A stretch of DNA of 39,660 nt from Nitrospirota bacterium (GTDB lineage: Bacteria; Nitrospirota; Nitrospiria; Nitrospirales; NS-4), in assembly GCA_005877615.1 (NCBI GenBank), contig VBOD01000111.1:1-39660 (forward strand). The letters run 5' to 3'. The notes beneath the pieces are model-generated. The model made no database searches. It saw nothing but the letters and a program-made list of their open reading frames with translations, and had not been told where the DNA came from. Each line of letters opens with the position of its first letter. Position 1 is the first letter of the stretch. Below, in pieces: positions 8,671 to 37,931 of the stretch. The position numbers and the translations under genes were made by a program.

Positions 8671-9858
8671 ATGGCCTTCTCTATGCGCATCGCCTACTTC
8701 GACTGCTTCTCCGGCGTCAGCGGTGACATGTGCCTGGGCGCGCTCGTGGACTCCGGGTTGCCGCTTGCCGATCTCGTGCAGGGCCTCGAGGTCCTGCGGC
8801 TCCGGGGCTTCTCTCTCCGCAGCCGGCGGGTGGCCCGCGGCGCGCTGTCCGGCACCAAGGTGGACGTCCTCATCGAGAAGGGACGGGACCGAATGTTGAG
8901 CTTGCGGGACGTCCGCCGGGTGCTCAAGGCGGCGCACCTCCCGGAGCCGGTGCGCGACCGGTCGCTCGCGGTCTTCGATCGACTCGCCGAGGCCGAGGGC
9001 CTCGCGCACCGCACGCCGGCGGCCAAGGTCCACTTCCATGAACTGGGCAGCCTTGATTCGCTGGTGGACGTGGTGGGCACCGTGCTCGGCTGCCACCTCC
9101 TCGGCGTGGAGGCGCTCTACGTCTCGGCCATCAATGTCGGCTCCGGGACCAGCCGGTCCGAGCACGGCGTCATCCCTGCGCCGGGCCCTGCGACGGCCGC
9201 GCTGCTGAAAGGCCTGTCGGTGTACGCGGCGGGGCCGCGCTTCGAGCTGACGACGCCCACCGGCGCGGCGCTGATGGCGACGCTGAGCGCCGGTTCCGGC
9301 TCGATGCCGGCGATGACGGTCACCTCCATCGGCTACGGCGCGGGCGAGGCCGATCCGCCCGGCTGGCCAAACGCCGTGAGGGTCTTCGTCGGCGACACGC
9401 TGGAGCCGGCGGAGTCCGATCGCGTCGCCATGCTGGAGACTAACCTCGACGACATGAACCCGCAGGGGTACGACCTGCTGATCGAGCGCCTGCTGGCGCG
9501 CGGTGCGCTGGACGTCACGCTGACGCCGGTGATCATGAAGCGCGGCCGGCCCGGCATCGTCCTGAGCGTACTGGCCGATCCGGCCAAGGTGGAGCCGGTG
9601 CTCAAGGTCCTCTTCGCCGAGACGACGACGTTGGGCGTGCGCGTGCAGGAGGTCGCGCGTCGTCTCCTCGCGCGGGAGCTGACCGAAGTGGCCACGCGGT
9701 TCGGCCCGGTGCGTGTCAAGGTGGCGAAGGCGGCGGGACGCAGCCTGAAGGCCCGTCCGGAGTACCAGGACTGCAAGCGGATCGCGGAGCAGACCGGCCT
9801 GCCGCTGCGGGACGTCGTGCGCGAGGTCGAGCGCGCCCTCCGCCGCCTGCGGAACTGA
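8671..9858 (+). CDS. larC: Nickel insertion protein LarC, single-frame
   Basis: LarC is the CTP-dependent cyclometallase that inserts nickel into the pincer nucleotide. The sequence has RIAYFDCFSGVSGDM at the N-terminus, VHFHELGSLDSLVDVVG near residue 115, the TPTGAALMA segment and, in the C-terminal half, LETNLDDMNPQGYDLL and PVIMKRGRPG. It is one uninterrupted frame, unlike the lactobacillus gene that needs a ribosomal frameshift. ATG 8671 gives 395 aa. ATG 8683 fits the family N-terminus and lies 10 nt after a -10-like TAAGAT (8667-8672), so it may be the real start. It heads a run of metal-handling genes. Confidence 0.92.
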   Translation: MAFSMRIAYFDCFSGVSGDMCLGALVDSGLPLADLVQGLEVLRLRGFSLRSRRVARGALSGTKVDVLIEKGRDRMLSLRDVRRVLKAAHLPEPVRDRSLAVFDRLAEAEGLAHRTPAAKVHFHELGSLDSLVDVVGTVLGCHLLGVEALYVSAINVGSGTSRSEHGVIPAPGPATAALLKGLSVYAAGPRFELTTPTGAALMATLSAGSGSMPAMTVTSIGYGAGEADPPGWPNAVRVFVGDTLEPAESDRVAMLETNLDDMNPQGYDLLIERLLARGALDVTLTPVIMKRGRPGIVLSVLADPAKVEPVLKVLFAETTTLGVRVQEVARRLLARELTEVATRFGPVRVKVAKAAGRSLKARPEYQDCKRIAEQTGLPLRDVVREVERALRRLRN

Positions 9859-22161: not shown

Positions 22162-22254
22162 TCTTCACGATACGTGAAGGTCGGGTGTGAGCGGTCACTC
22201 TCAGCCGCTTGCGACCAACTGTTCTACTGTCGGCTAGCGGTTTCCAGGAGTCTT

Positions 22255-23565
22255 ATGATCGTTTTCTCGAACACCCGTGGTACGAGGCTACGGGCCTGGC
22301 TTGGCTGCGCGGCGATCGCTGCGGGACTGCTGTGCGGCGCGTCCTTCGGCGCGGAGCCTGCGCTCCAGTCTCCGGCTGGCGCTGAAGCCCTCAGCCTGAC
22401 CGTGGACGAGGCGATGGCGCTCTTTCTCAAGCAGAACCTGGATCTGCTCATGGCCCAGTACGGGATCGATTCCGCCAAGGGGTTGGAAGTCACGGCGAGG
22501 CTCTTTCCCAATCCCAACATGAGCGTCGATGTCACCGGCGGGATGACCCTGTCGTTCGGGCAGGTCGGTGTCCTCGCCCTGCGGATCGACCAGCTCTTCG
22601 AGTTGGCCGGCAAAAGGGGCTATCGGCAGGAAAGCGCGAAGTATGGCGTCCAATCGGCTGAGGCGTCCTTTGCGGACGCCGTGCGGACCTTGGGCTTCGC
22701 CGTGAAAGACGCCTTCTACCACGTGTTCCAGGCCAGGCAGAAACTGGAACTGGCCCAGCTGAACAGTGTGAATTTCGCCGAGGTGGTCAAGATCAACGAC
22801 ATCCGCTTCAAGAAGGGGGCCATCCCCGAGGTTGATTTAATCAAGCTGCGGGTACAGCTGGTGGACTTCCAGAACCAGGTGATCACGGCCACCCAGGAGT
22901 ATCTGGCGGCGCAGAACACTCTCAAAGGCCTGCTCGGCCTCAAACCCACGGTCGTGCTGAATGTGGCGGGCGACCTTGAATACAAGTCCCGCACGCTGTC
23001 CCTGGAAACCTTGAAGGCGGACGCGTTGCAGTCGCGTCCGGATGTCCTGGCCAAGACGCGAACCGTGTCGCAAAAGGACGCGAGTCTGAAATTGGCGCGG
23101 GCTTTCCGGGTGCCCGATGTGACGATCGGGGCGGACACGACGATGGAGGGGCCCCAGGGACCCAATACGCCGCACCAATATGGCTTTGGGCTGAGCGTGC
23201 CGCTGCCCCTGTTCAATCGCAATCAAGGGGGCATCCTCCAGGCCGAGGCCGATCTTAAGGTCGCGCAGACCGATCTGGACAAGACCCGGTTGCTGGTTGA
23301 AATCGACGTCGAGAATGCGTACCGTGACTTTACCCAGACGCAGATGCTAGTCCAGGCGTATCGTGGGGGCACCGTTAACGACGCCAAGGAGGTCAAGGAC
23401 ATCGCGACGAAGGCGTACCAGCGGGGGGGCACGACCATCCTCGATCTGCTCGACGCTTTTCGGACGTTCAACACCACCATGCAGGGGTACATCAACGCGC
23501 TGTACGCCTATCAGCGAAGCTTGTTGGCGATCGACGCGGCGGTGGGGCGAGAGGTGACGCGGTGA
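22255..23565 (+). CDS. Outer-membrane factor of heavy-metal RND efflux (CzcC-like)
   Basis: A TolC-family channel of 436 aa. The signal peptide (RAWLGCAAIAAGLLCGASFGA) follows ATG 22255, which has CAGGAG 4 nt upstream. The open frame from 22174 lacks such support. Two OEP repeats are visible: LTVDEAMALFLKQNLDLLMAQ opens the first, and FGLSVPLPLFNRNQGGILQAEADL in the second is the CzcC/CusC-type 'PLPLFNRNQG' signature. Long helices (YRDFTQTQMLVQAYRG) form the periplasmic tunnel. The stop overlaps the adaptor gene by 4 nt. Confidence 0.9.
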   Translation: MIVFSNTRGTRLRAWLGCAAIAAGLLCGASFGAEPALQSPAGAEALSLTVDEAMALFLKQNLDLLMAQYGIDSAKGLEVTARLFPNPNMSVDVTGGMTLSFGQVGVLALRIDQLFELAGKRGYRQESAKYGVQSAEASFADAVRTLGFAVKDAFYHVFQARQKLELAQLNSVNFAEVVKINDIRFKKGAIPEVDLIKLRVQLVDFQNQVITATQEYLAAQNTLKGLLGLKPTVVLNVAGDLEYKSRTLSLETLKADALQSRPDVLAKTRTVSQKDASLKLARAFRVPDVTIGADTTMEGPQGPNTPHQYGFGLSVPLPLFNRNQGGILQAEADLKVAQTDLDKTRLLVEIDVENAYRDFTQTQMLVQAYRGGTVNDAKEVKDIATKAYQRGGTTILDLLDAFRTFNTTMQGYINALYAYQRSLLAIDAAVGREVTR

Positions 23566-24710
23566 CCGTGCGGCTCGTGACCGGTTGCGTGTTGCTGGCG
23601 TTGCTGGCGAGTGGCTGCGGCGAAGGGGGGAAGACTGAGGCCGTTCAACCTGCCGACAAGCCCAAGCCGGCCGGGCAGGCGAATCACAGCCCGGAGCTCC
23701 GGCCGCAGATCGTCGTTGAGACAGCGCAGCTCAAACCCATCTCTGGAGACCTGTCCCTGCCCGGCAAGGTCCAGTACAGCGAAGACCGATATGCCAAGGT
23801 TTCCTCGCCGGTTGTGGGGCGTGTCGTTGAAGTGCGTGCGAAGCTTGGCGACAAGGTGGCCGCCGGCCAGGTCCTGTTGAGCATTGAGAGCGCGGACATC
23901 GGGGCCGCCTATTCCGATTTCGTCAAGGCGGAGTCGGACCTGAATCTCGCCAAGCGGAACTACGAGCTTGCCAAGGACCTGTACGAAACCAAGGCCCTAT
24001 CCAAGAAAGACCTAGTCCAGTCGGAGAACGACTTTTTGAAAGCGCAGGCCGAATTCAGGCGTGCACGGCAACGCCTGCTCGGACTGCGCGTGCCAGCCGA
24101 AGAGCTGGACAAGCCGCGGGCGGAGCGCCTGATCACCTCACGTTTCGATCTCAAATCCCCGTTGACCGGTACGGTGGTCGAGCGGAACGTGACGGTGGGC
24201 CAGACGGTGGGCGCCGATCCCACGCAGATGCTCTATACCATCGCCGATCTGAACGTGCTGCAGGTCGTAGCCGAGGTCTATGAGCGGGACCTGAGCAGCG
24301 TGTCCAAGGAGGCGCCCGTCACGGTCACGGTCGAAGCCTATCCGGATGAGACGTTCCCGGGCACGATCGCCTACGTCGGGGACGTGGTGGATCCGACGAC
24401 GCGGACGATCAAGGTCCGGTGCAACGTGACGAATCGCGACCTCAAGCTCAAACCGGAAATGTTCGCGCGGGTGAGGCTTAAGGTCGGGTCCAGCACGCCG
24501 GTACTGGCCGTCCCCAAAGAGGCCGTAATTGAGGTGGCGGGCCAGCCCTTCGTCTTCGTGCAATCGGCGGACGGTCGGTACGTGCGGCGGCCGGTGGTGA
24601 CCGGGGCGATATCGGGCGATACCATTCAAATCCGGGAGGGACTGCAGGCCGGGGAGCGGGTGGTCGTCAAAGGGGCGCTGCTGCTCAAGGGCGAGCAGGA
24701 GAAGGGGTAG
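23562..24710 (+). CDS. RND efflux periplasmic adaptor (CzcB-like), lipoprotein
   Basis: A membrane-fusion protein of 382 aa with GTG start 23562 in the overlap with the outer-membrane factor gene. The N-terminus ends in the lipobox LLASGC, so it is anchored to the inner membrane by lipid. Then come the lipoyl half-motif VSSPVVGRVVEVRAKLGDKV, a helical hairpin (about residues 105-175), the second lipoyl half DLKSPLTGTVVERNVTVGQTV and beta-barrel segments (TIAYVGDVVDPTTRTIKVRC). It has no His-rich metal-binding extension like that of some CzcB/CusB proteins. It ends directly before the pump gene. Confidence 0.92.
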   Translation: MTVRLVTGCVLLALLASGCGEGGKTEAVQPADKPKPAGQANHSPELRPQIVVETAQLKPISGDLSLPGKVQYSEDRYAKVSSPVVGRVVEVRAKLGDKVAAGQVLLSIESADIGAAYSDFVKAESDLNLAKRNYELAKDLYETKALSKKDLVQSENDFLKAQAEFRRARQRLLGLRVPAEELDKPRAERLITSRFDLKSPLTGTVVERNVTVGQTVGADPTQMLYTIADLNVLQVVAEVYERDLSSVSKEAPVTVTVEAYPDETFPGTIAYVGDVVDPTTRTIKVRCNVTNRDLKLKPEMFARVRLKVGSSTPVLAVPKEAVIEVAGQPFVFVQSADGRYVRRPVVTGAISGDTIQIREGLQAGERVVVKGALLLKGEQEKG

Positions 24711-27700
24711 ATGATTGCCCGGATCGTCGAGCTGGCGCTGGCTCAGCGGCTCCTCGTTCTAACGCTCGGCATCGTCCTTCTTTTCGGCGGCCTCTACGCC
24801 TTCCACGTCCTTGACGTGGTCGCCTATCCGGACCCATCGCCGCCGATGGTCGAGGTGATCACCCAGTATCCCGGGTGGTCCGCCGAGGAAATCGAACGGC
24901 TGATCACGATCCCGCTCGAGACAGCCCTGAACGGCATGCCCGGGCTGACCGATCTGCGCTCAATCTCGATTTTCGGCCTGAGCGACATCAAAGCATATTT
25001 CGACTTCGCTACCGACTACTACTTCGACCGCCAGGAAGTGCTGAACCGCGTCAACATGGTCTCGCTGTTCGGCGGGGTGCAGCCACAGCTTTCGCCCTGG
25101 TCGGCCATCGCCGAGATCTACCGTTACGAGCTGACGGGTCCGCCGGAGCTTTCCTTGAGTGACCTGAAGGCGACCCAGGACTGGCAGCTCCAGCGCCAGT
25201 TCAAGCAGGTCCGCGGGATCATTGACGTGACGGCCTTCGGCGGGACGACGAAGGAGTACCATGTGGACATCGATCCGGGGAGCCTGCTCCAGTACAACGT
25301 CACGCTGGGTCAGGTTCTCAATGCGCTTGCCAACAGCAACGCCAACGTCGGCGGCAACTATCTGACAGTCGGCGCGCAGAGTTTCAACGTGCGCGGCGTC
25401 GGTTTGATCCGGGACTTGAGCGACATCGAGAACGTCGTCGTCGCGGAGAAGGGCAGCACGCCGATCTATGTCAAGAATGTCGCGAGGGTGGCCTATGGCT
25501 ATCGCGTCCGTCTGGGCAAGGTAGGGATCGACGACCGCGACGATGTGGTGGAAGGTATCGTCCTGCTTCAGCGCCAGGCGAAGGCCATTCCGACGCTGGA
25601 GCGGGTGCGGAAGAAGGTCGAGCAATTGAACCACGGACGCCTTCCGACCGGCGTTCAGATCAAAACCTTCTATGATCGGACCGATCTGATCCAGATCACG
25701 ATCAAGACCATCATGGAGATCCTGTTCAGTGGGATGGTGCTCGTGTTCCTGCTCCTGTTCGTGTTTTTGGGCAACATGCGTGCGGCCCTCATTGTAGCCC
25801 TGACGGTACCCATGGCCCTGCTGTTCACCTTCTCCATGATGGTGTCGGTGGGGGAGTCGGCCAATCTGATCTCCCTCGGCGCCATCGACTTCGGGATCAT
25901 CGTGGACTCGGCGCTGATCATGGTCGAGGCGATCTTCCTGCAACTCAGCCATCATGCGGCCCAGCAGCGTCCGGTGGGGGTGACGATCGTGCGCGCGGCC
26001 CGGCACGTGGGCCGTCCGATCTTCTTCTCGACGCTCATCATCCTGGTCGCGTTCATCCCGCTCTTCACGATGATCGGGGTCCCGGGCAAGATCTTCGCGC
26101 CGATGTCGGTCACCTACGGGTTCGCGCTCTTGGGCGCACTGCTGATCGCCGTGACGCTCAGCCCGGTTCTGTGCGCGCTGTTGCTGAAGCCGCCGCTACC
26201 GGAAAAGGACACGCGATTCGTCGCGTGGCTCAAGAGGCTCTACCTGGTCACCCTCCGCCGGGTCCTCGCGAACCGCGGCCTCACGGTCGCGCTGGCAGCG
26301 GGACTCCTGCTCATCGCGCTGGCGGCGCTTCCGTTGATGGGCGGCGAGTTCATGCCGGCTCTGGAAGAGGGTAATCTCTGGGTGCGGGCGACGATGCCGG
26401 TGGACATCTCATTCAACGAAGCGGCCCGGATTGCGGCCGAGGCGCGGAGCGTCTTCCGCGCGCACCCGGCGGTCAAATCCGTGGCCTCGCAACTCGGTCG
26501 CCCGGACGACGGGACGGACCCCACGAGCTTTTTCAACGCGGAGTTTTTCGTCAACCTCAAGCCACGAGACGAATGGCCGCCAGGGCTCGACAAGCACGGG
26601 ATCATCCATGAGATCGAGGAGCAACTGAAGACGTTTCCCGGCATCATCTTCAATTTCTCTCAGGCGATCCAGGACAACGTCGAGGAAGCAATGTCCGGCG
26701 TCAAGGGGGAGAACTCGATCAAGCTGTTCGGCCGTGATCTCGCGCAGCTCGAGGCCACGGCGCTTCGGATTGAGCGGGTGATGAAGCCCATTCCCGGCGT
26801 CGCCGATCTCGGTGTGTTCCGGCTGCTGGGACAGCCGAATCTGCTCATCCAGGTGGATCGGACCGCCTGCGCCCGGTACGGCGTGCTGGTCTCGGATGTC
26901 AACGCGGTTGTGCAGGCGGCCATCGGAGGCCAGGCGGTGACCCAGGTCATCGAAGGCGAGCGGCGGTTCGATCTAGTCGTCCGCTTCCTGCCGCAATATC
27001 GGCAGGACATTCAGACGATCAGCAACATCCAGGTCGCCACGCCGGACGGCGCGCGGATCCCGCTCAAGCAGCTCGCCACTCTCACCGACCAGACCGGCGC
27101 GTTCATCATTTATCGAGAGAACAACGAGCGGTACATCCCGATCAAGTTCAGCGTGCGCGGCCGCGATCTGGCGAGCACCGTCCGCGACGTCCTGGCCAAG
27201 ATCGGAGAGAACGTGTCATTGCCTCCGGGTGTGCGGTATGAAGTGGCTGGCCAGTATGATCAGCTCCGGGATGAGCAGCGGCGGCTCGCCGTGATCGTGC
27301 CCGTGAGCCTGGTCGTGATCCTCTTCCTGCTCTATTTGACTTTCAACTCCTTTACCGATGCCTTTCTGGTCCTGGCCACCGTGCCGTTCGCGCTGATCGG
27401 CGGGATCCTATCGTTGGTGCTGACCGGGACGCACTTCAGCATCTCCGCCGCCGTGGGCATCATCTCGCTCATTGGCGTGGCCATCCTCGGCGGGGTGCTG
27501 TTGATCTCCCGCATCAAGGAGTTGTTGCTCGAAGGCGTCAGGCTTGAGGACGCGATCATGCGGTCAGCGGAATCGCAGATGCGGCCGATCCTCATGGCCA
27601 CGCTGGGCGCCGCAATCGGGCTGCTGCCTGCGGCAGTCGCGACGGGCATCGGCGCGCAAACCCAGCAGCCGCTCGCGCGCGTGGTCGTCGGCGGGATGCT

Positions 27701-27839
27701 GACGGCCGCCGTGCTGATCCTAGTCGTGTTGCCGGTCCTGTACTCGCTGTTCAGCACAAGCGACGGAGCGGGGCCGGAGCCTGGCATCCCGCCGGAGCTA
27801 CCCCAGGATACGCGAACGGGTAAGGACCATGTGGCTTAA
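24711..27839 (+). CDS. CzcA-type heavy-metal RND efflux pump
   Basis: The proton-driven inner-membrane pump of the tripartite system. 1042 aa, the family length, with 12 predicted transmembrane helices and two large periplasmic loops. TM4 carries DFGIIVDSALIMVEA (residues 393-407). D393, D399 and E406 are spaced as in CzcA (D402, D408, E415), which defines heavy-metal (HME) rather than drug RND pumps. The usual GA and VEN of that motif read SA and VEA here, so substrate range may differ. It starts right after the adaptor stop. Its stop lies 11 nt inside the next gene. Confidence 0.93.
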   Translation: MIARIVELALAQRLLVLTLGIVLLFGGLYAFHVLDVVAYPDPSPPMVEVITQYPGWSAEEIERLITIPLETALNGMPGLTDLRSISIFGLSDIKAYFDFATDYYFDRQEVLNRVNMVSLFGGVQPQLSPWSAIAEIYRYELTGPPELSLSDLKATQDWQLQRQFKQVRGIIDVTAFGGTTKEYHVDIDPGSLLQYNVTLGQVLNALANSNANVGGNYLTVGAQSFNVRGVGLIRDLSDIENVVVAEKGSTPIYVKNVARVAYGYRVRLGKVGIDDRDDVVEGIVLLQRQAKAIPTLERVRKKVEQLNHGRLPTGVQIKTFYDRTDLIQITIKTIMEILFSGMVLVFLLLFVFLGNMRAALIVALTVPMALLFTFSMMVSVGESANLISLGAIDFGIIVDSALIMVEAIFLQLSHHAAQQRPVGVTIVRAARHVGRPIFFSTLIILVAFIPLFTMIGVPGKIFAPMSVTYGFALLGALLIAVTLSPVLCALLLKPPLPEKDTRFVAWLKRLYLVTLRRVLANRGLTVALAAGLLLIALAALPLMGGEFMPALEEGNLWVRATMPVDISFNEAARIAAEARSVFRAHPAVKSVASQLGRPDDGTDPTSFFNAEFFVNLKPRDEWPPGLDKHGIIHEIEEQLKTFPGIIFNFSQAIQDNVEEAMSGVKGENSIKLFGRDLAQLEATALRIERVMKPIPGVADLGVFRLLGQPNLLIQVDRTACARYGVLVSDVNAVVQAAIGGQAVTQVIEGERRFDLVVRFLPQYRQDIQTISNIQVATPDGARIPLKQLATLTDQTGAFIIYRENNERYIPIKFSVRGRDLASTVRDVLAKIGENVSLPPGVRYEVAGQYDQLRDEQRRLAVIVPVSLVVILFLLYLTFNSFTDAFLVLATVPFALIGGILSLVLTGTHFSISAAVGIISLIGVAILGGVLLISRIKELLLEGVRLEDAIMRSAESQMRPILMATLGAAIGLLPAAVATGIGAQTQQPLARVVVGGMLTAAVLILVVLPVLYSLFSTSDGAGPEPGIPPELPQDTRTGKDHVA

Positions 27840-31452: not shown

Positions 31453-31965
31453 TTAGTGATGCAGGTGCTTCATGGTCGAGGCCATAAGCACGATGAAGAT
31501 GCCGAACCAGAAGGACGCGCGAAGAAACGGGACGCCTTCCGGGTCCTTCTCTTCGTCGTCTGATTTGCCCTTCTCTTCGGGCTCGGGCGGAAAGATGATG
31601 TTGTACAGGAAGAGCGTCATGATGCACATGACGAAGAAGAGCTTGATGCCCAGCGCGATCAGGTACGGGTTAGTGAACCCTTCCCCGTTGGTCGCCTTCA
31701 TCAGCCGGTTGACGTAGGCGATGTTGATCCCGCCGGTGACCAGGATGATCAGCATGAGGGCACCGATGATCCGCTGGTACTTCCGGTAGATGGCGTTGGC
31801 GAGCGGCTTGACGAGCTCGCCCGGGACCGATTTCCTCAGCGAGGGCACGACGGCCATCATCAGCAGGCCCAGCCCGCCGATCCAGAGGATGGCGGACATC
31901 AGGTGGAGCCAGTGGTTCACGATCGGGATCCACTGGTTAATGAATGCGTCGATGAACTTGTCCAT
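31453..31965 (-). CDS. CopD-like four-helix membrane protein
   Basis: 170 aa with four hydrophobic helices: about residues 17-38, 67-86, 102-125 and 147-163. VNHWLHLMSAILWIGGLGLLMM resembles the first helix of CopD/DUF-type membrane proteins with a conserved histidine pair, and MKHLHH ends the protein. A charged loop EPEEKGKSDDEEKDPEG separates helices 3 and 4. Histidines in helix 1 and at the C-terminus could bind haem or copper, as inferred from related proteins. ATG 31965 overlaps the radical SAM stop by one base (TGATG), so it is the third gene of the USP/PCP_red operon. Confidence 0.8.
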   Translation of the reverse strand: MDKFIDAFINQWIPIVNHWLHLMSAILWIGGLGLLMMAVVPSLRKSVPGELVKPLANAIYRKYQRIIGALMLIILVTGGINIAYVNRLMKATNGEGFTNPYLIALGIKLFFVMCIMTLFLYNIIFPPEPEEKGKSDDEEKDPEGVPFLRASFWFGIFIVLMASTMKHLHH

Positions 31966-33326
31966 CAGAATTTGAACACGGGTTTCTCGTTGCCGAAGCG
32001 CGCTTTGCGGAGCTCTTCCATGAACTCCGGCGTGATCACCGACAGCCCGCGCTCACGGGCCTTGGCCTCCACGCTCTTCTTGACCATCGCCTGCATGAAG
32101 TAGGGGATGCGCTTGAAGCGGGCCGCGGCCTCGTCGGACCAACGCACCCCGAACTTCTCCGGGGCGGTGTCCACGCCGATCTCGTTGACCTTGACCTTGG
32201 GGCCGCCCTTCGGGGTGTAGAGGCACCACTCGTCCGCGTCCAGCCAGTCCCCGTGGTCGGCGTAGGGGCGGGCGCGGCACCCGCCGCAGATGTCGGAGTA
32301 CTCGCAATCCGCGCACTTGCCCTTGAGCTTCGGCTCGCGGAACGAGTCGAACACCTCCGAGCGCTCCCACAGGTCCACGAAGCTGACCTCCCGCACGTTG
32401 CCCGCGCTCAACGGCATGTACGGGCACGGGGTGAGGTTCCCTTCCGGCGTCACGCGGGCGTAGTTCGTGCCGGCGAGGCAGCCGCCGCCCATGTAGCCGG
32501 TGGCTTTGGTGATCGGCGAGTTGGGGTCGCGCTCGTACGCGATGCGCTTGAAGTGCGGCGCGCACCGGGCACGCACCAGCATGTCGGGATACTGCTGCTG
32601 CACGTCCACGAGGTACGTGAGCACCTCCTCGTACTGCGGGGGCGTGATGTCGGTCATCTCCTCGCCGCGGCCCGTGCAGACCAGGAAGAACAGGTTCAAC
32701 ACGCGGGCGCCCAGCTTGTGCGTGAACGCGACCATCTCGGGCACCTCGCGGTAGTTCATCGGGGAGACGCTGAAGTGGACCTGGAACTGCAGCCCGGTGC
32801 GCTTGCAGGCCTCGATGCCGGCCATCGTGCGCGCCCACGCGCCGGGGAGCCCGCGGAACGCGTCATGCTTGGCGGGGTCCACCGAGTCCACGCTGATGCC
32901 CATGCCCATCACGCCGATCTCGACCAGTTCCTTGGCCAGCGCGTCATCGATCAGCATTCCGTTGGTCCCGAAGACGACCATGAAGCCGCCCTTGACGGCG
33001 TAGCGGGCGATGTCGAGGATGTCCGGGCGGGTGAGCGGCTCGCCGCCGGTGATGACGACGATTGCGTGCTTGTTCACGATCGCCATCTGGTCCAGCAGCG
33101 TGCACACCTCCTGCGTTGTCAGTTCGTCGGCCGCGCCGGACACCCGGGTCGTCGCGTCGAGGTAGCAGTGCCCGCAGCGGAGGTTGCACCGCTTGGTGAG
33201 GTTCAGCGCGATGAGGTAAGGCTTCCAGTCATTCTGCGGGGTGGGCTTGCGACCCTCCGGCAGGAGGCCGGGCCGGTTGATGTACCGTAGGGGGATCGGA
33301 TTGATGAGCTGGAGCGAGTCGTTCAC
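31965..33326 (-). CDS. NirJ/AhbD-like radical SAM/SPASM protein with C-terminal PCP_red domain
   Basis: 453 aa, start GTG 33326. The radical SAM cluster is C47-x3-C51-x2-C54, with GGEP at 94-97. Auxiliary cysteines C255, C283, C301, C338, C341, C347, C350 and C368, with GGCRARPYADHGDWLDADEWC at 348-368, follow the layout of NirJ/AhbC/AhbD enzymes of haem d1 and siroheme-dependent haem synthesis. Residues 394-441 (VRWSDEAAARFKRIPYFMQAMV and following) are a PCP_red domain, found at the end of protochlorophyllide reductase subunit B. It overlaps the upstream USP-PCP_red gene by 4 nt (GTGA). Tetrapyrrole chemistry is likely but not proven. The frame upstream to 33965 is a shadow. Confidence 0.88.
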   Translation of the reverse strand: MNDSLQLINPIPLRYINRPGLLPEGRKPTPQNDWKPYLIALNLTKRCNLRCGHCYLDATTRVSGAADELTTQEVCTLLDQMAIVNKHAIVVITGGEPLTRPDILDIARYAVKGGFMVVFGTNGMLIDDALAKELVEIGVMGMGISVDSVDPAKHDAFRGLPGAWARTMAGIEACKRTGLQFQVHFSVSPMNYREVPEMVAFTHKLGARVLNLFFLVCTGRGEEMTDITPPQYEEVLTYLVDVQQQYPDMLVRARCAPHFKRIAYERDPNSPITKATGYMGGGCLAGTNYARVTPEGNLTPCPYMPLSAGNVREVSFVDLWERSEVFDSFREPKLKGKCADCEYSDICGGCRARPYADHGDWLDADEWCLYTPKGGPKVKVNEIGVDTAPEKFGVRWSDEAAARFKRIPYFMQAMVKKSVEAKARERGLSVITPEFMEELRKARFGNEKPVFKF

Positions 33327-35365
33327 GACTGCTTGTTGCCGATCAAGCTCTCGATGATGTCCTTGAGGTTGCCGGTCTTCATGGCCTCTTCCATGTAGCC
33401 CTTGGCCTGCTCGATCCCGGCCTCCGCGATCTCGTAGGTGATGGTCGTCGCGGCGATCTTCTCGGCGTGCTTCTCGATCAAGGCCCGCGTGCAATCGCGC
33501 ATGTAGCCGGCCGGCGCCCGTTCGAGGCGGGCCACCGCGTCGGGGGTCCAGGTGAAACGGGAACCCTGGGGCGTGGCGGGCGGTGCTCCTGCCTTCTCGG
33601 GCGGCGGGAACGCGCCGGTGCCCTTGTTGGCGAAGATCGGCGTGTACTCCTCGCTGGCGGCCTCGTCGATGTAGGGCTTGGCGAACTCCAGCGTGATGGT
33701 GGTCATGCCCATCTTGCGGGCGATCTTCTCGATCTTGGCCTTGCACCGGCGGCGCTGGAAGCCGGCAGGGACCGCGCGGATGGCCTCCTTGGCGTCCTTG
33801 GTCCAGGTCATCGGCACGTCGTCGTAGGCGAGCTCGGTCTCGAGCGTGCCCTCGGTCTTGGCGGCCGCCTCGAACATGCTCTTGTCGATCAGCGTGAACG
33901 TGTCGCCGGCGGCCTTGCAGATCGGGCACATGACGGGCTGGTCGCCCTTCGCCGTGTAGCCGCACCTGCTGCAGAGCCAGTAGTTCTGGCTCATCCGGTC
34001 CAGGTAGGCCTGCGTGCCCGGGCTGACCGCGGGCTTCTCTTCCACGACGCCGGCCATCATGCCGGAGAGCGTCGAACCCATCATATCGCGGGCCACGCCG
34101 TCATCGGCCTTCATCGCGTTGCGGTCAATCCCCTGCGCGTCCAGCGTGGCGCCGAGCTGCTTCATGGCATCCATCGCGCCCTTGGGCAGGATGTGGCCGA
34201 CGGCCGCGTCCACCACCGAGTTGCTGATGATCGTGTGGCCCTTCTCGATCGCGTACCGGTGGATGGCGGTCTTGGCCACGCCGCGGGCGAACACTGGGAT
34301 CTTCTCCATGCGGCGGAGGGCTTCTTCCGTCCACGCGATGGTGTATTCGGCCTGCTGGTCGATCGGCGGGACGTACTTCTTGTTGGAGATCATCACGTGG
34401 CAGTCCACCATGCGTAATAGATTTTCGGCGTTCGAGCCGATGTCCATGTCGTCGTCGCTGTGCACGCCGATCCGGCCCAGCACCAGCATCCAGGGCTTCT
34501 CGCGGCGGACGTACTGGAGCACCTTCTCGAAGGCTTTGCCGTCCAGCAGCGTGGTCTTGATGTCCTGCCCTTCGGCTTGGGCGATCTCGCGGCCGATGTC
34601 GAGGTGCGCCTGGTAGATCTTGGCCAGCCCGCTGTCAATGATCTCCTCATGCAGCTTTTCCTGCTCCTTGAAGCGGAAGACCTTGCCGGCCTCCTCGTTG
34701 AGGACGCCGGAGATGCTGTGGAAGGCGGCGTAGTGGAAGTAGGGATCGAAGGCTGAGACGGCCTCGACCGTCTTGTTCAAGGCCTTGCCGAGCGCCAACG
34801 CGGTCTTGAGGCCGCCGAACGAAAAGTGGCTGCCGTCCAGCGCGACCAGGATGGAGCCGCCGTTCATCGGCAGGGTGTTCTTGATGACGAAGATGTCCGA
34901 CGCGCGCACCCGCCGGACCACGCGTTCCGTGACGCCGCCGATGACGCTGTCCTTCACGGCGCCCACGCCCAGGGCGCCCATGATGACGAGGTCGTAGGCG
35001 TTGGTGTTGATGTCTTCGACGAGGACCTTGAAGTTCCGGCCTTCCAGCGACCGCCGTTCGACCGGAATGTTCGCCTCGGCGGCCTTCTTGTCTACGATAT
35101 CCAGGTAGGAGTCGGTGATGATCTGCAGGCCGCGGGTGATCAGCGAATCGTGGATCTGCCGCTGCCGCTCGAGTTCGTTTTCGTCGTGGTATTCCTCGGG
35201 GAGGCCCGCTTCCATCTGCTTGAAGCGCTTGTCGTGCATCTTTGCCGCGTACACATGGCTGCCGACGAGTTTGGCCCCGAACGTCTTCGCCAACAAGACT
35301 CCGACATCCAACGCCATGTTCGAGTAGTCGGAGTTGTCAACCGGGACGTAAATCGTCTTATACAT
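33323..35365 (-). CDS. Tandem universal stress protein fused to PCP_red and rubredoxin-like domains
   Basis: 680 aa. USP domain 1 spans 1-163 with ATP-loop pattern G130-x2-G133-x9-G143. USP domain 2 spans 167-328 with the exact pattern G297-x2-G300-x9-G310-S311. PCP_red copies lie at about 341-392 (YTIAWTEEALRRMEKIPVFARG), 517-567 (PMTWTKDAKEAIRAVPAGF) and 603-653 (FTWTPDAVARLERAPAGYM). Between copies 1 and 2 is a rubredoxin/rubrerythrin-like zinc or iron ribbon, C465-x2-C468 and C480-x2-C483. No signal peptide, so cytosolic. ATG 35365 has AAGGAG. It is the first gene of a unit with the radical SAM and CopD-like genes. The architecture suggests nucleotide sensing coupled to redox or tetrapyrrole handling (inference). 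Confidence 0.9.
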   Translation of the reverse strand: MYKTIYVPVDNSDYSNMALDVGVLLAKTFGAKLVGSHVYAAKMHDKRFKQMEAGLPEEYHDENELERQRQIHDSLITRGLQIITDSYLDIVDKKAAEANIPVERRSLEGRNFKVLVEDINTNAYDLVIMGALGVGAVKDSVIGGVTERVVRRVRASDIFVIKNTLPMNGGSILVALDGSHFSFGGLKTALALGKALNKTVEAVSAFDPYFHYAAFHSISGVLNEEAGKVFRFKEQEKLHEEIIDSGLAKIYQAHLDIGREIAQAEGQDIKTTLLDGKAFEKVLQYVRREKPWMLVLGRIGVHSDDDMDIGSNAENLLRMVDCHVMISNKKYVPPIDQQAEYTIAWTEEALRRMEKIPVFARGVAKTAIHRYAIEKGHTIISNSVVDAAVGHILPKGAMDAMKQLGATLDAQGIDRNAMKADDGVARDMMGSTLSGMMAGVVEEKPAVSPGTQAYLDRMSQNYWLCSRCGYTAKGDQPVMCPICKAAGDTFTLIDKSMFEAAAKTEGTLETELAYDDVPMTWTKDAKEAIRAVPAGFQRRRCKAKIEKIARKMGMTTITLEFAKPYIDEAASEEYTPIFANKGTGAFPPPEKAGAPPATPQGSRFTWTPDAVARLERAPAGYMRDCTRALIEKHAEKIAATTITYEIAEAGIEQAKGYMEEAMKTGNLKDIIESLIGNKQS

Positions 35366-35553: not shown

Positions 35554-37185
35554 TCAGGAGGGCGTGGAGGCTCCGGTTTTCGCCGGAGATTTACGTGTGT
35601 TGAGAATCGCTTCCAGGGTCAGCAACACGTCGCGTCCGGAGTTCAATTCCACCCCCCGGAGGAGGCTCGCGTCGGCATAGCGACTGCCCCTTACGTCCAA
35701 GGCCGGAGAGGGATTGGCCAGGGCACCGGACCAGGGCCGAGGATCGCGGCTGCCGGTGCGGGACCCCGTCTTGCGGTTCCAGGCCGCGAGGCAGGCCTTG
35801 CCGATCAGCTTGTTGAGCGGAGCGGGGTTGTACAGCATCTTCCGGATGCTGGACGGGCTCAGCACCAGCGGGTTATAGCCGGACGTCAGATACCCTTCGT
35901 CCAGTAGCCGCCCCTCTAGATCTGTGTGCGGTTGGATGCCCAGGAAGAACATCATCGGAAAGACGCGGTCCTCGCCCAGGATCGCCGCGACTCTCTTGTA
36001 CGACTCGATGGAGTCACGCAGCGTCGCTTCCGTCTCATCGGGAGCGTTGAGCGAGTAGTTCAGGATCACCTTCCCTTTGAACCCGGCTTCGGCCAGGTGG
36101 CGGCAGCCGTCGTACAGGCGGTCGAGCACGAAGCCCATGTGGAGGCCGTTCAGGACCTCCGGCGAGCCCGAGGTGATGGCCACTTCCAGGTCGCCGACGC
36201 CAGAGCGGACCATGAGCTTGGCGAACTCGCTGGTGATGAGCGACGTGCGGATGTAGCCGGACCACTCGATCTCCAGGCGCTCAGCGATGATTCGCTCCAT
36301 GATCTCGGTGCACTGGGGGTAGGCGGCTTTGCCGGTGATGAACTGGGCGTCGGTGAACCAGAACCGGCGCGTGCCCCACTGGCGATAGTGCTGCGCGATG
36401 TCGTTTACGACCCGCGCGGCCGGGCGATACCGGACGGACTTGCCTTCCAGGTAGGGGTAGAGACAGAAGGCGCAGTCGTACGGGCACCCGCGCTTGCTCT
36501 GTACCCCGATGCAATCGTCCGTGTAGGCGGTGTACTGCGGGAAGATCTCCGTGATATACGGGAGGTCCACGGACAGGTCGTCGAGACCGGTGTAGCTCTG
36601 TCCGGTGCCGGTGATGGTCTTGCCGTTCTGGCGTGCGATGAACCGCTCGCCGTCGAGTGGTTTGCCTTCGACCATTTTCAGCACGGCCTCTTCGCCCTCG
36701 CCCAGGATGCCGATGGTGCCCTCCGGCAGCTTCTCGATGAGCTGCTCGGCGAAGGCGCCGAAGGCCCCGCCGCCGATCATGATCTGCGCGCCGGGGCAAA
36801 CCTTCCGGATCAGCCAGGCGTGCGCCAGGTTGGCCCGGATGCCGGAGTAGTACTGGTAGAGCGATTTCAGGCCGGAGAGCGACGCCGCGAGTTTCTTGAA
36901 AGGGTTGGGCGAGTAGTAGAAGTTGAACGCTTGCTCCAGGGAGGCGTCCCCTTCATGCGGCGAGAAGATCTGGATGTCGCGCCAGGAGAAGCAGACCAGG
37001 TCGGGGCGAACGTCCACCGCGGTCTCGCGCACGGCCCTGGCGCGCTCGCCAGGGGGAATCTGCGACAGGTCGAGGATGCGCTGGCGGACGTCGGGGTGGC
37101 GCTTGTGGATGTAGTCGGCGAGATAGGTGCAGCCGACCGGATAGATCGGCTTGCAGGGCAGAAAGATGTAGAGGATGCTCTTCAC
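35554..37185 (-). CDS. B12-binding-type radical SAM protein
   Basis: 543 aa. The N-terminal 200 residues fit a cobalamin-binding Rossmann domain: PVGCTYLADYIHKRHPD, and MIGGGAFGAFAEQLIEKLPEG followed by GILGEGEEAVLKM, the usual 'GG....pe.....d....GEGE' block. The radical SAM cluster is RGCPYDCAFC (C-x3-C-x2-C). The AdoMet barrel follows (FWFTDAQFI, LEVAITSGSPEVLNGLHMG). Relatives include BchE-, HpnP/HpnR- and methylthiotransferase-type enzymes; the substrate cannot be told. The last 70 residues are Arg/Ser-rich and unlike the rest. The start overlaps the UbiE-like gene by 4 nt, so the pair is coupled. Confidence 0.85.
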   Translation of the reverse strand: MKSILYIFLPCKPIYPVGCTYLADYIHKRHPDVRQRILDLSQIPPGERARAVRETAVDVRPDLVCFSWRDIQIFSPHEGDASLEQAFNFYYSPNPFKKLAASLSGLKSLYQYYSGIRANLAHAWLIRKVCPGAQIMIGGGAFGAFAEQLIEKLPEGTIGILGEGEEAVLKMVEGKPLDGERFIARQNGKTITGTGQSYTGLDDLSVDLPYITEIFPQYTAYTDDCIGVQSKRGCPYDCAFCLYPYLEGKSVRYRPAARVVNDIAQHYRQWGTRRFWFTDAQFITGKAAYPQCTEIMERIIAERLEIEWSGYIRTSLITSEFAKLMVRSGVGDLEVAITSGSPEVLNGLHMGFVLDRLYDGCRHLAEAGFKGKVILNYSLNAPDETEATLRDSIESYKRVAAILGEDRVFPMMFFLGIQPHTDLEGRLLDEGYLTSGYNPLVLSPSSIRKMLYNPAPLNKLIGKACLAAWNRKTGSRTGSRDPRPWSGALANPSPALDVRGSRYADASLLRGVELNSGRDVLLTLEAILNTRKSPAKTGASTPS

Positions 37186-37931
37186 TTGACGGCGAGGTGG
37201 ATGGCGACGATGCCGCCGCTCAGGTTGTGGTATTCGACCTTCTGGAAGCCGACTTCACGCAGTAGGCGCGCCAGCCCGTTCTGATCTGGAAAGGAGCGGA
37301 TCGAGGCCGGCAGATACTGATAGACGCCGGTCGTGTCCCCGGAGAGCCTGGTCCCGATCCATGGCAGCAAGGTGAACGAATACCAGTCGTACAGCCGGCG
37401 CAGCCAGCCTGCCACGGGGTGCGAGAACTCGAGGCAGATGAGCCGCCCGCCGGGCTTCAGCACGCGTCGGATCTCCTGAAGAGCCTGCGACAGGTTCGCG
37501 ACGTTCCGCATGCAGAAGCCCGTGGTCACCGCGTCGAATACGCTATCCGGGACGCACAGCCGCTCGGCGTTGGCCTGGACGCAGAGGATTTGGCGCTGCA
37601 AGCGGGCGGTCCGCACCTTCTGCAAGCCGATGGCCAGCATGGGGCCGTTGAGGTCTACCGCTACGACCCGCGCGTGCTCACCCAGGCGCCGCGCTGCCAG
37701 TAGCGCCAGATCGGCGGTGCCTGCACCGACATCCAATACGACTCGGCTGTCTACTATGAGGTGCGCCGCCGCTTGACTTTTCCAGGAGTGGTGCAGGCCT
37801 AGGCTCAGCAGCGAGTTGTTCAGGTCGTAGTAGCGGGCGATCGAGGAGAACATCCGCTGGACGGCCTGCTCCTTCTGCGGCCCTGTGCCCGCCGGCGGCG
37901 CGGTCTGCCTCTGCTCTTCCAACGTCAGCAT
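37182..37931 (-). CDS. ubiE: UbiE/MenG-family quinone C-methyltransferase
   Basis: 249 aa. Family blocks are present in order: FSSIARYYDLNNSLLSLGLHHSWK, SAM motif I VLDVGAGTADLALLAARRLG, VDLNGPMLAIG, TGFCMRNVANLSQALQEIRRVLKPGG and LICLEFSHPVAG. UbiE/MenG methylates demethylmenaquinone (or a ubiquinone precursor) in the last steps of quinone synthesis. The usual FG(I/L)RN reads FCMRN, and the usual YD.MN reads YDLNN. With the coupled B12 radical SAM gene, a modified quinone or a different substrate is possible. ATG 37931 gives a normal N-terminus. Confidence 0.87.
   Translation of the reverse strand: MLTLEEQRQTAPPAGTGPQKEQAVQRMFSSIARYYDLNNSLLSLGLHHSWKSQAAAHLIVDSRVVLDVGAGTADLALLAARRLGEHARVVAVDLNGPMLAIGLQKVRTARLQRQILCVQANAERLCVPDSVFDAVTTGFCMRNVANLSQALQEIRRVLKPGGRLICLEFSHPVAGWLRRLYDWYSFTLLPWIGTRLSGDTTGVYQYLPASIRSFPDQNGLARLLREVGFQKVEYHNLSGGIVAIHLAVK

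Follow-up and report, generated by a model that had tools for sequence, protein, structure and literature searches.

The three-gene locus

The stretch of DNA analysed here, referred to as the window, is the 39,660-nt contig VBOD01000111.1 of a Nitrospirota bacterium (GCA_005877615.1; lineage Nitrospirales; NS-4). Positions 35365-31453 of its minus strand harbor three coupled genes, which encode a USP-PCP_red protein, a radical SAM/SPASM-PCP_red protein and a four-helix protein (Table 1). The first two genes overlap by the four nucleotides GTGA, and the radical SAM gene is joined to the membrane gene by a one-nucleotide overlap within TGATG. An earlier examination of the letters alone, here called the sequence-only reading, had proposed this coupled unit, and its coordinates, strand and overlaps were all confirmed. 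Elsewhere the window contains three genes for RND-type efflux (22174-27839; outer membrane efflux protein, CusB/HlyD-type fusion protein and AcrB-type pump) and a gene for a LarC-type nickel insertion protein (8671-9858; PF01969, 439 bits).

Table 1. Features of the three-gene unit and of its upstream neighbours in the window.
Feature	Position	Strand	Evidence
USP-PCP_red protein, 680 aa	33323..35365	-	domain profiles; conserved adjoining radical SAM gene
First USP domain (residues 1-154)	34904..35365	-	PF00582
PCP_red copy 1, USP protein	34202..34333	-	55 bits, above cut-off
Rubredoxin-like domain (residues 463-490), USP protein	33896..33979	-	PF21349, 28 bits vs cut-off 26.5
PCP_red copy 2, USP protein	33683..33805	-	41.9 bits, above cut-off
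PCP_red copy 3, USP protein	33422..33550	-	30.1 bits, slightly below cut-off 32.5
Radical SAM/SPASM-PCP_red protein, 453 aa, GTG start at 33326	31965..33326	-	NCBIfam/Pfam profiles; own clade in tree
Radical SAM motif CNLRCGHC (residues 47-54)	33165..33188	-	kept in 53/53 aligned sequences
Auxiliary-cysteine region C255-C368 with CAPHxxR motif	32223..32564	-	cysteines and motif as in AhbD
PCP_red domain, radical SAM protein	32007..32141	-	57.4 bits
Four-helix CopD/HemJ-like membrane protein, 170 aa	31453..31965	-	conserved His18, His21, Lys108, His167, His169
B12-type radical SAM gene (slr0320-like), upstream neighbour outside core unit	35554..37185	-	446.6 bits, below cut-off 775
Methylplastoquinone methyltransferase MpqE, upstream neighbour outside core unit	37182..37931	-	389.9 bits vs cut-off 335

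The radical SAM enzyme

The CxxxCxxC motif of the radical SAM protein is formed by C47, C51 and C54, and auxiliary cysteines are located at C255, C283, C301, C338, C341, C347, C350 and C368. The latter include the pattern CX2CX5CX20-21C, which has been given for NirJ of haem d1 synthesis (PMC10548856). All eight match AhbD, which agrees with the suggestion that the cysteines are laid out as in haem d1 and alternative-haem enzymes. The combination of the eight cysteines and the CAPHxxR motif is absent from NirJ, PqqE, MftC and GDL. The nearest NCBIfam models were NirJ2 (318.4 bits vs a cut-off of 500), AhbD (311.7 vs 500) and NirJ (173.1 vs 515). Matches to the defence family viperin were owed to the shared radical SAM core.

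A maximum-likelihood tree was calculated from 53 sequences, including references for AhbD, TIGR04053, NirJ, PqqE, MftC and GDL. Since several deep joins lie on long branches, the clades alone were used. All 35 PCP_red-bearing radical SAM enzymes form a single clade (support 98/98). The AhbD group is a separate clade (97/98), and the TIGR04053 group, whose Thermus member adjoins nirS, is a third (100/100). NirJ and the peptide maturases PqqE, MftC and GDL are placed apart from the PCP_red-bearing clade. The comparison with NirJ, AhbD and PqqE that the sequence-only reading had called for thus yields a distinct clade outside the peptide-modifying references, and its placement of the protein with haem enzymes holds in that the protein belongs to the AhbD/NirJ haem-modifying class. 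Iron tetrapyrroles are the substrates of AhbC, AhbD and NirJ alike (PMC7242693). AlphaFold models built from close relatives alone reached pLDDT values of 49.5 and 60.9, too weak to place PCP_red relative to the active site. A plasmid search returned no relative above 35% identity among the matches listed.

The USP protein and PCP_red domains

In the USP protein, two USP domains are followed by a PCP_red domain, a rubredoxin-like domain and two more PCP_red domains. The Usp profile (PF00582) scored 104.3 bits, above the Pfam cut-off, and PCP_red (PF08369) exceeded its cut-off in both the USP and the radical SAM protein. Four PCP_red copies had been counted in the two soluble proteins from the sequence alone. 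This number stands, with three copies in the USP protein and one in the radical SAM protein; taken singly in a DNA scan, three of the four are above the Pfam cut-off. The rubredoxin-like domain was absent from that earlier description.

PCP_red is the C-terminal domain of the protochlorophyllide reductase subunit BchB. The 1.82 Mb genome to which the window belongs contains ten PCP_red matches. Other PCP_red proteins in this genome are a repeat protein on contig C121 and, on contig C98, a protein that begins with a zinc-ribbon-like segment, has two PCP_red copies and is encoded next to an Mrp-type Fe-S carrier. Counterparts of both adjoin the USP/radical SAM pair in genome G163 (f and G numbers label the families and genomes of the sampled set, L numbers the loci read). 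In G169 the repeat PCP_red protein sits between the radical SAM and CopD-like genes, and G152 and G163 have a haem-oxygenase-like iron protein (PF14518) between the repeat and the two-copy PCP_red protein. This clustering of PCP_red proteins supports a role of the domain as the common docking unit of one system.

The genomes G152 and G163 share a conserved cluster (L138:5866-9487 and L082:7629-10760) of an Mrp-type ATPase, the zinc-ribbon-like PCP_red protein, the haem-oxygenase-like iron protein and the repeat PCP_red protein. In families f13 and f21 (e.g. G058, G066) a single PCP_red match was observed, and the radical SAM-PCP_red gene was not found.

The third gene

The four helices, the histidines in helix 1 (His18 and His21) and the HLHH tail, here KHLHH, noted earlier for the membrane protein were seen again. 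All 52 homologues compared have Trp19, His21 and Lys108, and 47-49 of them have His18, His167 and His169. Four helices put both ends of the protein on the same side, so the conserved histidines could form a single metal or haem site. The matches to CopD (PF05425, 30.7 vs 32.1 bits) and DUF4149 are just under the cut-offs, and that to HemJ (PF03653) is weak (14 vs 34.2 bits, E 0.06).

A CopD/HemJ-like protein is the third gene product in most Nitrospiria. In families f28, f29, f36, f38 and f39 the position is taken by a conserved PNPOx-like protein (weak match, E 0.009), for which no credible match was found in the PDB, and in f18 by a small membrane protein plus HmuY (PF14064, E 1.3e-20), a member of a haem-binding family. 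This change between lineages indicates that the USP and radical SAM genes are the core of the unit and the third gene a replaceable partner.

Conservation across genomes

A contig search with a single protein identified near-identical loci in four near relatives and one fragment, from Nitrospirae/Nitrospirales metagenome genomes. Among 58 related genomes, nearly every member of three Nitrospirales families has the radical SAM gene, at an identity of roughly 70% or higher, and the USP and membrane genes adjoin it on the same contig. Missing cases are mostly contig breaks or genomes of low completeness; in G027, which is 95% complete, close homologues of all three genes are missing. A fourth family, f4, keeps the USP gene next to the membrane gene and has a radical SAM relative (48-49% identity) at another location. 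A survey of 296 genomes from the phylum showed the radical SAM-PCP_red gene in further classes as well, and most of the loci read have a USP gene next to it. Neighbourhood conservation, which had been named as a check on the unit, is thus found for the trio in three Nitrospirales families and for the USP/radical SAM pair throughout the phylum. These genes stand side by side in dozens of genomes, far more often than chance would allow.

No description of the three-gene unit was found in the literature searched. The unit is real, conserved and, as far as this literature shows, undescribed, and its enzyme is a variant within the radical SAM haem-modifying enzymes.

In three f3 genomes (loci L049, L051 and L058), divergent genes for SAM synthetase and S-adenosylhomocysteinase, identified by eye from the sequence, flank the trio.

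Haem-related neighbourhoods

In other lineages the radical SAM gene is often surrounded by genes for proteins that make, bind or contain haem, in line with the haem context assumed by the sequence-only reading. In G264 the USP/radical SAM pair directly adjoins a haem d1 locus, which encodes two cytochrome d1-domain proteins (421 and 185 bits), a third d1-type propeller protein, a NirJ-like protein (349 bits), a PNPOx-like protein and a fused siroheme decarboxylase, whose AhbA (247 bits) and AhbB (243 bits) parts are both above cut-off. In f20 the radical SAM enzyme and a repeat PCP_red protein form one fused protein, and HemY (291 bits, above cut-off) comes next. HemL (620 bits) precedes the pair in G180, and in G186 the radical SAM gene is followed by one cytochrome c gene and then NosZ (844 bits). 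The neighbours in f28, f29, f33 and f36 comprise, in various combinations, a bd-like oxidase, cytochromes c, an ethylbenzene-dehydrogenase-type haem protein, an NXR-like molybdoenzyme and TorD.

Co-occurrence with bd-like oxidases

The distribution of the enzyme was compared with that of bd-like oxidases, whose OR-N label rests on gene context and literature rather than on a tree, in 182 sampled genomes outside the class Nitrospiria. A genome was scored as lacking the radical SAM gene from a match table truncated at E 1e-60, and these absences were checked against a PCP_red search. Both genes are present in 23 genomes, the enzyme alone in four, the oxidase alone in one and neither in 154, with the caveat on enzyme absence that some PCP_red protein also occurs in about two dozen further genomes. 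This corresponds to a Fisher p of 4.7e-24 and, stratified over six families, a chi-square of 21, whereas the control with canonical CydB gave a negative association (both 4, enzyme alone 23, CydB alone 70, neither 85; p=0.003); as the sampled genomes are related, the p-values overstate independence. The bd-like gene lies elsewhere in the genome from the pair in seven genomes (G111, G128, G139, G180, G186, G259 and G264). Linkage on one island therefore does not explain all of the co-occurrence.

Inside Nitrospiria both the enzyme and a bd-like oxidase are present in nearly all sampled genomes, which leaves little contrast. Three genomes of this class (G254, G262 and G283) harbor a bd-like oxidase without the radical SAM-PCP_red enzyme, and in Nitrospirales the unit does not adjoin the oxidase. 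The association may reflect a shared respiratory lifestyle. The sequence-only reading had envisaged delivery of a cofactor to a membrane protein; the membrane protein of the third gene is replaced by unrelated proteins in other lineages, and a bd-like respiratory oxidase, whose gene may be close to the unit or at a distance from it, is the better supported client.

Alternative explanations

The unit might be part of a stress or oxygen response that repairs or recycles haem or Fe-S proteins and involves no dedicated new cofactor. This would fit the USP and rubredoxin-like domains as well as the clustering of Mrp and PF14518 (haem-oxygenase-like) proteins with other PCP_red proteins. Moreover, USP proteins, not individually identified, rise at low oxygen in Nitrospira marina (PMC8115632). 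However, the enzyme is associated specifically with bd-like oxidases, and its association with canonical CydB is negative, a pattern not expected from a general stress role. We consider this explanation rather improbable.

Alternatively, the radical SAM protein could be a haem b synthase (coproheme decarboxylase), i.e. an AhbD with an extra domain. Its closest families, AhbD and NirJ2, and the identical auxiliary cysteines are compatible with this, as is genome G152, the sole genome in which searches for HemQ, HemN and canonical AhbD found none of the three. Yet a HemQ-family protein is present in the Nitrospirales checked; this family also includes chlorite dismutase. HemN is above cut-off in families f6 and f20 and in genome G010. 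A separate canonical AhbD occurs in seven checked genomes (G147, G128, G205, G251, G282, G227 and G059) with scores of 430-522 bits. The AhbD cut-off is 500, and unambiguous AhbDs adjoining hem genes here score 430-449 as well. At the AhbD loci L112, L113 and L129-L134 the gene adjoins HemE and in some is near HemY. The coexistence with AhbD, HemQ or HemN in nearly all checked genomes indicates that the radical SAM-PCP_red protein is not the housekeeping haem b enzyme. Together with the distinct clade and the score below the AhbD cut-off, this makes a haem b synthase unlikely.

Some of the loci L112 and L129-L134, which come from several other classes, also contain a likely ferrochelatase, as a coproporphyrin pathway with AhbD in place of HemQ would lead one to expect. 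In nine f3 genomes (G009, G012, G018, G021, G027, G029, G034, G043 and G049) a HemQ-family protein is present and no ferrochelatase (PF00762) was found, the complete genomes included.

A contribution to methylplastoquinone synthesis or electron flow, rather than to haem, is suggested by the coupled MpqE and slr0320-like genes (35554-37931) directly upstream of the trio, an order that recurs in f1 and f2 genomes. The slr0320-like B12 radical SAM protein may itself have a role in methylplastoquinone synthesis, and Nitrospira use methylplastoquinones (PMC12324825). In f3 and most other classes, however, the unit is not beside these genes, and the enzyme class acts on tetrapyrroles (PMC7242693), which renders this reading very doubtful.

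Least probable, and hardly to be expected, is a SPASM maturase that builds a peptide-derived cofactor, because, common as this architecture is among RiPP maturases and conceivable as PCP_red would be as a peptide-binding recognition domain, the enzyme lies outside PqqE, MftC and GDL in the tree, its gene neighbours are haem-related, and the 188-base gap upstream contains no conserved small ORF, no peptide precursor being found there. Of the two targets offered by the sequence-only reading, a tetrapyrrole or a peptide-bound cofactor, the former is thus favored by the enzyme class and the haem-related neighbours, and tree position and upstream gap speak against the latter.

Proposed function

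Nitrospirales account for a large part of the world's nitrite oxidation and comammox. To our knowledge, the haem type of their OR-N bd-like oxidases is not established. Nitrospira are reported to be without a canonical haem-copper terminal oxidase (PMC6606698), and cbb3 is encoded in some Nitrospira genomes (PMC8115632). The OR-N bd-like enzymes have been proposed as replacement terminal oxidases and are experimentally uncharacterised (PMC10839748, PMC12342949).

Against this background, there is about an even chance that the unit represents, in this genome, a module found throughout the phylum that modifies and handles haem and serves OR-N bd-like/NXR-type respiratory enzymes. That the substrate of the radical SAM enzyme is a tetrapyrrole is probable. 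For bd-like/NXR-type respiration as the client of the module the chances are roughly balanced, and a wholly new haem as the product appears doubtful. Equally tentative is the stronger form of this proposal, in which the enzyme would make a novel haem as the dedicated cofactor of the OR-N bd-like oxidases and PCP_red would be a general tetrapyrrole carrier in the phylum.

For substrate, reaction, product and client, and for the roles of PCP_red, the USP protein and the third protein, we infer the following scheme. The radical SAM enzyme would alter an iron tetrapyrrole using SAM and its auxiliary Fe-S clusters, and the PCP_red domains, present on the enzyme and on its USP partner, are predicted to hold, dock or pass on the tetrapyrrole. 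The USP/rubredoxin protein may act as a nucleotide-responsive scaffold or as an electron relay. The third protein, which is CopD/HemJ-like here and PNPOx-like or HmuY elsewhere, might accept the haem or pass it on. As putative clients we regard the haem-containing respiratory enzymes typical of nitrite oxidisers, in particular the OR-N cytochrome bd-like oxidases.

A special haem would be indicated by a conserved radical SAM enzyme of the AhbD-like kind that accompanies these oxidases throughout the phylum, and the haem type of the OR-N oxidases thereby becomes directly testable in culturable Nitrospira. The data also suggest that PCP_red, known from chlorophyll synthesis, has been reused as a tetrapyrrole-handling unit in non-phototrophs.

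Comparison with known systems

The enzyme resembles AhbD (TIGR04545) in its radical SAM/SPASM fold, the same eight auxiliary cysteines and the CAPHxxR motif. It differs from AhbD by the extra PCP_red domain, by its separate clade, by a score of 312 bits against a cut-off of 500 and by its coexistence with a true AhbD. With NirJ (TIGR04051) and NirJ2 (TIGR04055) it shares membership of the haem-modifying radical SAM superfamily and the CX2CX5CX20C motif, and one relative, that of G264, is encoded beside a haem d1 locus. However, the enzyme is below both cut-offs, that d1 locus contains a separate NirJ-like gene, and NirJ lacks C255, C283, C301 and C350.

The PCP_red domains match the C-terminal domain of BchB and Asr4154 (PDB) in sequence, but the nitrogenase-like BchN/BchB body of BchB/ChlB (DPOR) is absent from the unit, in which PCP_red is fused to radical SAM, USP and rubredoxin-like domains instead. 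CopD, DUF4149 and HemJ share four helices and a conserved histidine in helix 1 with the membrane protein, whose Pfam matches are all below the gathering cut-offs. Finally, a bd-like/alternative NxrC/cytochrome c cluster has been described in Nitrospira moscoviensis and Nitrospina, and the portions of these descriptions that were searched mention no radical SAM or cofactor-making partner (PMC6606698, PMC3578206). A gene set matching this OR-N cluster flanks the USP/radical SAM pair in several genomes outside Nitrospiria.
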